In this document: piece by piece, positions 7,156 through 38,872 of the stretch
Position numbering within the stretch: position 1 is the stretch's first letter
Layout: each line of letters starts with the position of its first letter
DNA from: Chaetoderma sp. LZ-2023a
Lineage: Eukaryota > Mollusca > Caudofoveata > Chaetodermatida > Chaetodermatidae
Assembly: GCA_034401795.1 (NCBI GenBank)
Contig: CM067373.1
Coordinates: forward strand, 41,795,781-41,859,780
Direction: 5' to 3'
DNA length: 64,000 nt
Made by a program: the position numbers and the translations under genes
The notes under the pieces: model-generated
Seen by the model: only the letters and a program-made list of their open reading frames with translations
What the model was told of the DNA's origin: nothing
Databases searched by the model: none

Positions 7156-7267
7156 TAGTAGTAGTAGTAGTAGTAGTAGTAGTAGTAGTAGTAGTAGTAG
7201 TAGTAGTAGTAGTAGTAGTAGTAGTAGTAGTAGTAGTAGTAGTAGTAGTAGTAGTAGTAGTAGTAGT
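7156..7267 (+). repeat. (GTA)n microsatellite, 5' junction of copy A
   Basis: About 37 GTA triplets ending directly at the 5' end of retrotransposon copy A. It shows that GTA repeats lie upstream as well as downstream of the element. Confidence 0.97.
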
Positions 7268-7755
7268 TGAAGTGAACGCACGCGTTTATTTAGCTCTGCA
7301 ATTGCTGCCCGAATTTGCTACTTTCTAGCGCGATTTTGTAGATAAATTGTATACATATATTTCGTATTAGTATTTCCTTTCAAACTTTATGTTTAATTTG
7401 TAAATTCTTGTCTTAGTTGGAGCGCATTTTGTGTCTCCATTTTCCAAAGGCACTCCTCTTAGCTGGGGGTTTCAGCCATTTAATAGGTCTCCTCATGCTG
7501 TGGTCAGTGCAATACTTTTCTCGTCGCGCCAGTGGGCTATTTCTATAGTTCGTTGGCTAGCGCATTATATTTGGCAAGATCGCTTGAGTGAGTGGATTTA
7601 ATTCCTTTGTCATTTGTAAACGCAAGCCTATTACTTTGATTTTATAAATCTTCATAGTCAGTTGGCTGTTCCCTGTCAACTCGAACAGACTAACAAATAT
7701 ATGACTAATATGTTAGTATGCATTAGGGCACCACTTAAATCAGTTAGGTTTTAGT

Positions 7756-7884
7756 GAACCACTTAGAAAGTGGTTCAAACTAACAAATATACGACTGTAC
7801 TCTCTATTCGTATATTTGTTGGTAGACGTCAGGGTTTCAAAAGGGGACACTATTTATTTAGTGTTTAGCTCTTTCCCCGACGTC
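7756..7884 (+). promoter_or_regulatory. Chain of inverted repeats in the 5' UTR of copy A
   Basis: Three structures follow one another: a perfect 9 bp stem GAACCACTT / AAGTGGTTC (7756-7776, loop AGA), a perfect 13 bp stem AACAAATATACGA / TCGTATATTTGTT (7782-7820), and GACGTCAGGG pairing with CCCCGACGTC (7825-7884, one mismatch) that encloses a smaller ACACTA / TAGTGT stem. The chain ends about 60 bases before the ORF1 ATG. Copies C and D keep it. A role in translation or RNA packaging is inferred only. Confidence 0.7.
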
Positions 7885-7947
7885 TTGGTGTTATATATTT
7901 GTATTATATGTTGTAGTAGTATGGGGTTCCTCTTTTTATAAAACACC

Positions 7948-9357
7948 ATGGCAACCTCCTATAAGCGTACCCTGAGTCCTAAAATCACGACAAAGGCTTG
8001 GGGTGTTTCGACAATTGAGGTGAATCATGGGTTGAAGGATGTAGTTGGGGCAGGGCCACGGGTCCTTCAAGGTCTCATTAACGTTTCCAAATCTGTATGG
8101 AATGTCACAGTAGTTAATGAAAGTGTGAAGGAAATGTTGCTCGACGAGGTCCTTGTCGTGAAGGGTGAGGTGTGTAATGTGGAGGAAATAGATTCTGATC
8201 GTCTATTAGTCAAGATGAAGGTTCCATTAGAGATCCAAGATGAATGGGTTATCAATGAATTGATCAAGTATGGCAAAGTGGACAAAGTAGAACACGAGAC
8301 CTATCCATTTGATCGAACCTTAGAAAATGGCATCAGACGAATTTGGTTCGAAAATGTAGTACAACCTCTCCCAAGTAAGGTCACGATAGATGGTCGATTT
8401 ATGTTGCCATTATGGTACAGGGGGGAAATCAAAGAGTGTAGAATCTGCTTAAGCACAGAACATCTTGCAACAGATTGCCCTAACAAAAACAAATGTCTAG
8501 TTTGTGGATCATCTGATCATTTTAAGAGGCGATGCCCGCAGGACAAATATGTCAAAAAGGGTGCTGATAAAAGGGCAGAGCAAGTTGTCTCTAAAGAGAA
8601 TGTCATAGAACTGGTAGCTGCTGAGATTGTAGCTGAAATCCATGTTAATGGGAAGCGCGTTGCTAAAGAAAATGTCATCGAACCAGTAGTTGCTGAGATT
8701 GTAGCTGAAGTCCATGTTAGTGAGAAGCATGGTGAAAAAACTAAGAACCCAATCGCTGTAGTTGCATGCGATGAAATAGAGGTTCTAGATGAGGGGCTAA
8801 GTCTTACTCCAGTAACAAGTCAATCCAAGTCTGATGTCAGAGAGGCTAATTCCACACAAGTTGAAGATGATGATCAATACCCTCTGAAAGAGAGCTTTAA
8901 TTTAGGACAAGTAAAATTCAGGTCGCAAGATACTGAAACTAACTTTGATTTTCCACTGAGTACACTCAATCTAGACGATTTAAATAATATAGAGAAAGTA
9001 ATTGGTGTCTCGGATCGATTGAGTGGAACAAAGCGACAAAAAGACGGAGAGAGTTCCGAACCAGAAATAGAGGAAAGTGATATAGTAGATGATAATATGT
9101 CAGTCGCTGAATCCGATATATCCATTCAAACACAGAGTTCTAAATCACCCGATGAAATGGTCATGTACAGGTCAGCGGCAGGAGACGTGTTAGATCCATA
9201 TGTGATGGCAAAAGGGGTTAAATACAGGCATCTGCGTCATGATTCAGATATATTAAAATATAAGCATTTGGAAAAAGTAGAACTAAGTAGTGCAGCGTTT
9301 GCGAGTAAAATAGGTAAATGGTCTAAGAGAGGGTCGAAAAAACCAAAATCTAGTTAG
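7948..9357 (+). CDS. Copy A ORF1: nucleic-acid-binding gag-like protein with two CCHC knuckles
   Basis: This is the only intact ORF1 of the window, 469 codons from an ATG in CACCATGGC context. ORF1 proteins of non-LTR elements bind element RNA and form the ribonucleoprotein that goes to the target. Residues 1-160 form a mixed alpha/beta region conserved in copies C, D and F, plausibly RRM-like. Two perfect CX2CX4HX4C zinc knuckles follow at residues 164-177 and 183-196. Residues 200-270 contain an internal duplication around ENVIE.V.AEIVAE, and the remainder is acidic and Ser-rich with a basic C-terminus. The stop at 9355-9357 lies six bases before the ATG of ORF2. Confidence 0.88.
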   Translation: MATSYKRTLSPKITTKAWGVSTIEVNHGLKDVVGAGPRVLQGLINVSKSVWNVTVVNESVKEMLLDEVLVVKGEVCNVEEIDSDRLLVKMKVPLEIQDEWVINELIKYGKVDKVEHETYPFDRTLENGIRRIWFENVVQPLPSKVTIDGRFMLPLWYRGEIKECRICLSTEHLATDCPNKNKCLVCGSSDHFKRRCPQDKYVKKGADKRAEQVVSKENVIELVAAEIVAEIHVNGKRVAKENVIEPVVAEIVAEVHVSEKHGEKTKNPIAVVACDEIEVLDEGLSLTPVTSQSKSDVREANSTQVEDDDQYPLKESFNLGQVKFRSQDTETNFDFPLSTLNLDDLNNIEKVIGVSDRLSGTKRQKDGESSEPEIEESDIVDDNMSVAESDISIQTQSSKSPDEMVMYRSAAGDVLDPYVMAKGVKYRHLRHDSDILKYKHLEKVELSSAAFASKIGKWSKRGSKKPKSS

Positions 9358-9363
9358 CTTAAT

Positions 9364-36800: not shown

Positions 36801-37701
36801 AATGGAAATCATTGGCTGAGATTTGCTATGTTACTGCTCTTCGACCAATAGATGCTACGTGTCTGTTAGCTCGCGTACAAGAAGCTATACCGAAAGCTTG
36901 GTTCTCTCTATACAGTGCCGATCTTACTGATGTAATGATAAGGAATTTTCTTGCAGAATGGCAGTAAGCAGCTGGTATAAGCTCCTTAGGGAACTACATG
37001 CTGTACCTCCAAGAGCTATTTATGCATGGGAGCAGCATGGTTATAATATTCTGAACTGGGAGATAATATGGAAAAACATACATCTACCGAATATTCCCAA
37101 TCAGGCAAGAGATGTAGTTTGGAGACTAATACACAGAAAGCTTTGGGTTAAACATCTCATGACAAAAGCAAAACTGTGTGCTGAAGATGATAATAAGTGC
37201 GTTTTCTGTGTAAGCTCTGAGGAAACATTGGTACATCTATTCGTTGAATGCCATGTTGTAGTTCAGTTCTGGGTATATGTAACTAGGATTTTATCAGATC
37301 TCGGTGTTCCTACATCGGACATAACACCACACAATATTTTATTTCATGACCTTGCAAATGAGTCACATCAAATAAATAATAAAGTTATTGTGTTAGTCTG
37401 CTTAAGCATTGGAATTTGGAGCATTTGGAAACATCGCTGCTCTGTAGTGCATGATGCAAATGCTAATTTTAAAGCGAGAGAGAGAGACACGCGATCATTT
37501 AAAAAGTTTAATGGGATATTTTATGCGTTATTGTCACATTGTGTTAGAGGCGAATGCCATAAGTATATTAAAAAACAAAATCGAAAAACGTTTAGAAGAA
37601 TATGGTGCAGAGGTAGATTAATATCATTTGAAAATGACAATCTGTCCATCAAAACACCGCCGTGGTTATTTAACCTTTCATTTAATGTGCCGAATACGTA
37701 A
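33890..37701 (+). pseudogene. Copy F ORF2, broken; poly-Asn insert
   Basis: The ATG at 33890 is followed by a stop after three codons; endonuclease sequence resumes at about 33928 (LICTLNCRG) and is damaged near 34010, where the QETK box is lost. 34062-34721 retains GGDFNC and a changed SDPD in place of SDHD. 34801-35319 contains a (AAC)n expansion at 35056-35097 coding for about 16 Asn. The reverse transcriptase follows in pieces (YRPISLL near 35487, FDRLEWEFL near 35708, an in-frame TAG near 35781, YSDD at 35999-36010). The last piece, 36958-37701, has the terminal CX2CX8HX4C motif near 37200. Non-functional. Confidence 0.87.
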
Positions 37702-38754
37702 ATATTTTAACACTTATATTACATCCTTGTCAATTTGTGTATAATTTAATGTTGATTATGGAAGGATATATTTTTAAGAATAAATTTTTAATGTAAATTT
37801 ACCATTTGGTAGGAAATCGTTTGAATGGAGGCTGTTGCAGCCTGCTGTAACTGCCGCTTCCAGTCATTCGTTTTCAAAATTACCAGTCGTCTGTTATTTG
37901 TTTTGGACAGAGCAAAATGCACTGTAAAATTCTGACCTAAAATCATCCTATGTTTATGAATTACAAACGATCCAGTATTATATTTTGGAACCGCCTTATC
38001 ATTGTAGCTAATATCGTTATAAAATGGCAGCGAGCTTTGTCATTGTTTAACAATGTACAATCCCGGATAATTTTAGAATCTCTCTCAAAAAGGAGAGAAA
38101 TATTTAAATGCCGCGGAGTTATTATTATTGGGCTCCGCACTGCTGACAAAGTGTTTGAGTTTAAATGCTCGCGCTTTGTTGGCTATATAAAAGATTACCC
38201 GGGCCTATTCAGAATAGAGCATACTAGATGTTTAATTTGATCAAAACAATGAACGTATGGCGTTTATTTTATTAGTATATACTTACTTTGACAAAACAGA
38301 TATTTCAAAAATACTATTAGGACGAAAAGACTGATAAATATGTAATTAGATTTTTAATGTTGATTAACATTTACTCCTTTGAACCCAGACTTCCACGAAT
38401 CTCACATTCTGGACAATCGTACGTGTAAGCTGTTGGATGGTTTGAAACTGCTTGGACTGGAACCCGTTGCTGCCATATACAGGAACGACTCCCAGTTAGA
38501 TGTGTTTCAAAATGTTCAACAGAATATTTATATTTATTTAAATAAAAATGATTTCTTTCGTATTTGTCCCTTGGAGTGCAAAGAGTTAAATATGTATATT
38601 TATTGAGCAGCGATTTTGAAGTATTTTATTATACTGAAAGACAGATGAATTTTTGAAAGGTTTTTCCGTTTCACTTGCCGTTTATTTACTGTTTGTATGT
38701 TGTATGATTTGTACGTCAGTCTTTTATATGTTTTTGGATATGAAAGGTTTTCCG
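37702..38754 (+). other. Copy F 3' UTR
   Basis: Non-coding. Contains CCCGGATAATTTTAGAATC near 38062, related to the motif in copy E. A 75-codon ORF at 38379-38606 resembles nothing I know and is probably chance. Confidence 0.65.
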
Positions 38755-38772
38755 CACGATCCATAAATCGTG
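38755..38772 (+). promoter_or_regulatory. Family 2 terminal 3' hairpin, copy F
   Basis: CACGAT / ATCGTG stem with six-base loop; the seventh pair of copy E is lost. Followed by an AATAAAAAAA tail and (GTA)n. Confidence 0.7.
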
Positions 38773-38789
38773 TTATCAATAATAAAAAA

Positions 38790-38872
38790 AGTAGTAGTAG
38801 TAGTAGTAGTAGTAGTAGTAGTAGTAGTAGTAGTAGTAGTAGTAGTAGTAGTAGTAGTAGTAGTAGTAGTAG
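38790..38872 (+). repeat. (GTA)n microsatellite, 3' of copy F
   Basis: About 27 pure GTA triplets between the A-rich tail of copy F and a partial unit X. Confidence 0.97.

Follow-up and report, generated by a model that had tools for sequence, protein, structure and literature searches.

L1-like retrotransposons of a caudofoveate mollusc appear to target the microsatellite (GTA)n

Among the closest described systems are the fish long interspersed nuclear elements (LINEs) Kibi and Koshi, which according to work of Kojima and Fujiwara in 2004 reportedly belong to the Tx1 clade and have (TC)n/(TTC)n targets. The target of Xenopus Tx1 is one DNA transposon, not a microsatellite. Here we analyzed LINE copies in a stretch of 64,000 nucleotides (nt) from Chaetoderma sp. 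LZ-2023a (contig CM067373.1, positions 41,795,781 to 41,859,780; "the window" means this whole stretch) and searched the genome for their relatives (2.44 Gb, 2,753 contigs). We propose, with a probability of roughly 0.92, that they are non-long terminal repeat retrotransposons of the L1 group, probably of the Tx1 clade, with the microsatellite (GTA)n/(TAC)n as target. Where both ends of a copy are complete, a GTA array adjoins each of them, and it is always the sense strand that reads GTA.

The elements resemble Kibi and Koshi as LINEs of the L1/Tx1 branch that carry an apurinic/apyrimidinic endonuclease (APE) and would insert into simple repeats; however, the repeat units are different, and the likeness is one of description. 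With Xenopus Tx1 they share the relationship to L1, the target specificity and the APE type, and a relative annotated as "Transposon TX1" (P0080) was among the protein hits, although it is just 30-33% identical to the window copies. Target-sequence-specific insertion, here with both junctions in GTA arrays, is a trait of the Tx1 clade. The accessible part of PMC2684134 names Kibi and Koshi as fish elements and does not state their target. Microsatellite targets have been reported for several LINE lineages, including Togen (NeSL-related, (TG)n) and families of the HERO clade (PMC4640811, accessible part). While those lineages have a restriction-like endonuclease, the GTA elements carry an APE domain; the trait they share with microsatellite-specific LINEs is the same repeat on the same strand on both sides of complete copies (37/37 5' ends, 40/40 3' ends). 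RTE elements of Lepidoptera, whose 3' ends are likewise joined to simple repeats, generate microsatellites according to the accessible part of PMC2887409. In those elements, however, the repeat is part of the 3' end, whereas here it stands on both sides.

The window contains six L1-like LINE copies, A, B, E, C and F on the + strand and D on the - strand. They are lettered A, B, E, C, F, D in window order, possibly differently from the original prediction made on this DNA.

7156-7267, + strand: (GTA)36 array directly 5' of copy A
7266-14126, + strand: copy A, family 1 (A lineage), retains its 5' end and has broken reading frames
14127-14651, + strand: GTA/GCA array from the 3' end of A to the 5' end of truncated B
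14652-17876, + strand: copy B, family 1 (C lineage), 5'-truncated, starting directly at the array end
17877-17991, + strand: GTA, then GCA array joining B to E
17992-23812, + strand: copy E, family 2, with APE, reverse transcriptase (RT) and zf-RVT domains
23813-24176, + strand: (GTA)n 3' of copy E
24667-24776, + strand: GTA/GGA array directly 5' of copy C
24777-31569, + strand: copy C, family 1, 5' end present, reference copy in the searches
31570-31587, + strand: (GTA)6 3' of copy C
32074-32123, + strand: (GCA)/(GCG) array, not GTA, 5' of copy F
about 32121-38790, + strand: copy F, family 2
38791-38871, + strand: (GTA)27 3' of copy F
54474-54851, - strand: (GTA)n with GCA units 3' of copy D (TAC on the + strand)
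54852-62623, - strand: copy D, family 1 (C lineage), 5'-truncated, with a non-GTA 5' flank
24177-24666 and 31588-32073, parts at 6189-6298 (reverse), 6923-7155 and 38871-38967: unit X, about 490 bp with a GACAAAATCCCACC minisatellite, between LINE copies and flanked by GTA (or GCA) arrays

On the sense strand all six copies end in a short palindrome followed by an A-rich stretch and (GTA)n, and none in TAC (0/6). This agrees with the original prediction, whose span of 7156-38872 for the six copies did not hold, as copy D (54852-62623) lies outside it. The hairpins, recognized by eye, are of the type TCCGA..TCGGA in A-D, CACGATC..GATCGTG in E and a variant in F. At the 5' side, (GTA)n directly precedes A and C, as had also been predicted, and mixed GTA/GCA arrays precede B and E. 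Two of the copies bear internal repeats: a duplication of about 1.08 kb with 93% identity in D (55883-58086, - strand) and a 246-bp tandem duplication close to the 3' end of A (13421-13866).

The 3' junctions were followed through the genome with the 3'-terminal 340 bases of copy C as query. This yielded 1,755 candidates at first look, the best 40 of which were scored. In 40/40 of these best-scoring 3' ends the A-rich tail led into GTA repeats on the sense strand, and in 0/40 into TAC. Earlier passes with regular expressions had scored 27/30 and 36/40, and the rows missed by them (L014, L019, L022, L034, and L048) were then read individually. Many of the arrays are impure and have GCA and GTG units interspersed. 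An exact 23-mer of the 3' end was present in 447 + 421 (868) copies genome-wide, its reversed control in 0, and GTAGTA followed 5-32 bases downstream in 431 of the 447 forward-strand copies; sense-strand TAC at the exact 23-mer copies is bounded only by the remaining 16/447. The reverse-strand count of GTAGTA (1,673) was not used because reverse copies were listed several times and forward copies once each. In the part of contig C1 common to both 23-mer listings, 46/46 copies on both strands had GTAGTA downstream. Family 2 ended in GTA in 4/4 cases (E, F, L041, and L045).

For the 5' junctions, 19 of the 40 3'-selected copies were extended by 9 kb each; L039 and L049 abut assembly gaps, leaving 17. 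Thirteen of the 17 started at base 1 of copy C, all 13 directly behind a sense-strand GTA array. Eight of these aligned to C without interruption at 95.9-97.0% identity, and the alignments of the other five were broken by deletions or insertions inside the copy or by diverged stretches. L045, truncated at its 5' side, also starts at an array. In an independent search with the first 343 bases of C (134 candidates, 40 scored), rows 2-21 were examined across the junction: 20/20 copies, picked solely by similarity of the 5' end, had (GTA)n directly upstream. Taken together, all examined family-1 5' ends reaching within a few bases of the element start (37/37: the 13 extended copies, the 20 5'-selected ones, L011, L080, and window copies A and C) lie directly behind a GTA array of the same strand. 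In family 2 (n = 3), (GTA)n precedes L016, a mixed GTA/GCA array precedes E, and GCA/GCG precedes F. An exact 26-mer of the 5' end occurred in 764 + 740 (1,504) copies; it is common to more than one lineage, so that no ratio to the 3' 23-mer count can be formed.

Within a span of 10 bases, three alternative positions of the 5' junction were found. The common start, seen in 33/37 copies, has GTC (28), GTT (3) or GTA (2) preceding GAAGTGA or GAGGTGA. In two copies (L011 and L080) GTA is joined to GTGAACG, and in two others (L055 and C) GTAG is joined to ACGC, so that G or GT is common to array and element at these alternative joins, as would be expected of microhomology joining. The 5' flank of L055 also contains a very short LINE 3'-end piece (hairpin and A-rich tail) between an (ATT)n run and a GTA array.

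These 5' ends bear on the possibility that the elements themselves make the arrays, i.e., that a short GTA tail at the 3' end is copied with slippage and expands after unspecific insertion, as proposed for moth RTE elements. GTA at every 3' end seen and the shortness of some 3' arrays are compatible with such slippage, and microsatellites are reported to arise from RTE elements by this route (PMC2887409, accessible part). Nevertheless, it leaves unexplained why (GTA)n directly precedes 37/37 5' ends and why truncated L045 and window copy B start at arrays. The 5' junctions therefore rule out a slippage-made 3' tail as the explanation, and we consider it very improbable.

Chance adjacency was considered from the abundance of the repeat. 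The 21-mer (GTA)7 gave 563,255 + 552,771 overlapping matches in the 2.44 Gb, its reversed control 48,557 + 49,726; this roughly 11-fold difference is an unusual excess of one trinucleotide repeat. Although GTA arrays are abundant, they cover only 0.1-0.3% of the genome by rough estimate, and same-strand GTA adjacency at both sides is thus not due to chance.

Copies also insert head to tail into one another's flanking arrays, and several diverged lineages behave alike. Family 1 was found behind family 1 (L011, L053, L061, L080, and window A-B), family 2 behind family 1 (L016 and window B-E) and family 1 behind family 2 (L041 and L045). The two arrays flanking one copy differ in length and in their GCA/GTG units. 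Outside the arrays, no target-site duplication was found in 14 copies, the longest shared word in 20 x 20 flanks being 5 bases; clean unique flanks on both sides were present only in some of these copies (e.g., L043, L044, L051, and L057), as the edge of the others was still inside a repeat, in the tail of another element or at the end of the locus. Arrays at the 5' ends, nesting and the lack of outer duplications together argue for sequence-specific insertion into GTA arrays and not for slippage tails, in line with the original prediction that pre-existing arrays are the target. Three observations had been named there as speaking against it: unique-sequence 5' flanks, which were seen in none of the copies with a complete 5' end; target-site duplications, absent outside the arrays of the 14 copies with the flanks just described; and sense-strand TAC, found at 0/40 3' ends.

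The same flanks address a second explanation, by which GTA is carried at both ends of the RNA (its transcription would start in the upstream array and continue into the downstream one) and insertion is unspecific. This would indeed yield arrays on both sides of complete copies, but truncated L045 and B still start at an array, the two sides differ in length and GCA/GTG units, and the duplications of unique sequence expected outside did not appear (longest shared word 5 bases, 14 copies, only some clean). Truncated copies at arrays and the absence of outer duplications thus disfavor carried arrays, to which we give very little credence. That most copies were carried along when array-element units underwent segmental or tandem duplication, with few insertion events, is hardly credible. 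In its favor, unit X recurs among the window copies, so that local duplication does happen, and over 131 bases L064 and L071 do not differ by a letter; against it, many contigs bear copies and the outer flanks differ, diverged lineages show the identical arrangement, and array make-up varies from copy to copy.

Several points weigh against insertion targeted to (GTA)n. The 40-copy samples consist of the best-scoring matches and are not random, and the identical pair L064 and L071 perhaps represents one event. Three 5'-truncated copies (L040, L054, and L056) start inside the element next to non-GTA sequence, as does copy D, which starts at about base 148 of C; our guess is that later deletion or rearrangement produced these four 5' sides. 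Copy F is preceded by a (GCA)/(GCG) array and not by GTA. At the 3' side, L030, L017, and L033 have just 2-4 pure GTA units before other sequence, 16/447 forward copies of the 3' 23-mer lack GTAGTA in the tested gap, and one tail among 20 displayed, that of C1:15062151 (AATAGTAGTA), is shifted out of phase. Finally, our comparison of filled and empty sites is a paralogous one through one flank, a repeat named R1, and not one of orthologous alleles.

In this one-flank comparison, R1 in L010 is preceded by an uninterrupted array with some 84 pure GTA units; in L024 and L028, as well as elsewhere in L010, the preceding arrays bear a LINE. Three further 5' flanks were examined to complete it: L078 runs into an assembly gap, L079 lies inside an element, and L080 holds a nested copy. 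Unit X was rejected as an empty site: among the loci compared, it was confined to the window and to L009, and L009 is the locus of the window itself. R1 occurs in L010, L024, L028, L042, and L054. Its terminus (GTCAATATTGTCAACGCACTGGCTCAG) meets arrays whose last units are GTA, GCA or GTC in several of these loci, and short GTA-less sequence in L042 and at one place in L054. R1 may share the preference for GTA. Inspected by eye, the L010 copy of R1 is reminiscent on its reverse strand of the GIY-YIG region of a Penelope-like element.

The natural reading frames contain Exo_endo_phos (APE), RVT_1 (RT), and zf-RVT domains, with a zinc knuckle in open reading frame 1 (ORF1) of copy A. Judged by sequence, ORF2 belongs to the L1 group: an N-terminal APE is followed by RT, and the best solved relative of P0004 is human L1 ORF2p (expect value 6.4e-84), with R2-type RTs at 8.8e-13 and weaker. 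In 31 aligned rows the APE residues E35, D141, N143, D203, D227, and H228 were invariant and N6 was conserved in at least 90%; we take these to be active-site residues, as in the L1 endonuclease. The RT, too, has conserved residues. An uninterrupted frame of 1,241 residues, the length of P0004, was absent from the 25 copies examined, in which the longest was 878.

The nearest proteins are four metagenome entries, P0004-P0007. P0004, a 1,241-residue ORF2, is 97% identical to the L052 frame, P0006 is 69% identical to the same frame and 92% to copy A, and P0005 and P0007 reach 56% each. In tblastn, identity to P0004 was 95.8% for C, 58.5% for A, 49.8% for E, and 45.6% for F, and E and F are about 54-69% identical in aligned pieces. 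Given this low identity among copies sharing the target, the target spans diverged lineages; counted by ORF2 there are three or more, with identities of about 46-59% to one reference. Of 120 listed hits, 35 were entered into a tree, from which P0065 and P0021 dropped out; the remaining 33 rows include no named Tx1-clade reference. P0004-P0007 grouped with 100/100 support and P0008 stood beside them, while P0080, the sole row annotated TX1, was placed elsewhere in the drawn tree, whose deeper support is weak.

A mechanism can be suggested from the two junctions. The APE endonuclease would nick the (TAC)n strand at a preferred phase, and the freed 3' end would prime reverse transcription of the element RNA, beginning at its A-rich 3' end; such priming would place the A-tail directly against GTA. 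The 5' end would then be joined inside the same array through G or GT microhomology, with GTA meeting GTCGAAGTG or GTGAACG, or GTAG meeting ACGCACG. As all copies lie within arrays, RNA made by read-through may end in (GUA)n, and one might conjecture that this tail pairs with the nicked (TAC)n strand. Taken further, a whole diversified L1-type clade could have specialized on (GTA)n and co-evolved with it, being (GUA)n-primed and helping to maintain or spread the excess of GTA arrays; we regard this as speculative and rather unlikely.

No (GTA)n-specific LINE was recognized in our searches of open-access literature, Repbase and subscription papers being outside the search; the accessible parts of PMC3747384 and PMC10294476 were also considered on this question. 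Selfish DNA targeting simple repeats is already known, and (GTA)n as a target is provisionally new. Since P0004 is a 1,241-residue ORF2 with 97% identity to the L052 frame, biochemical tests look feasible. The elements would lend themselves well to studying how a simple repeat is recognized by an APE endonuclease and how 5' ends are joined inside it, and to following the mutual effects of a genome-wide microsatellite excess and its parasites. Few LINEs target microsatellites, and (GTA)n would extend their targets by a trinucleotide that is used by several diverged lineages in one genome.

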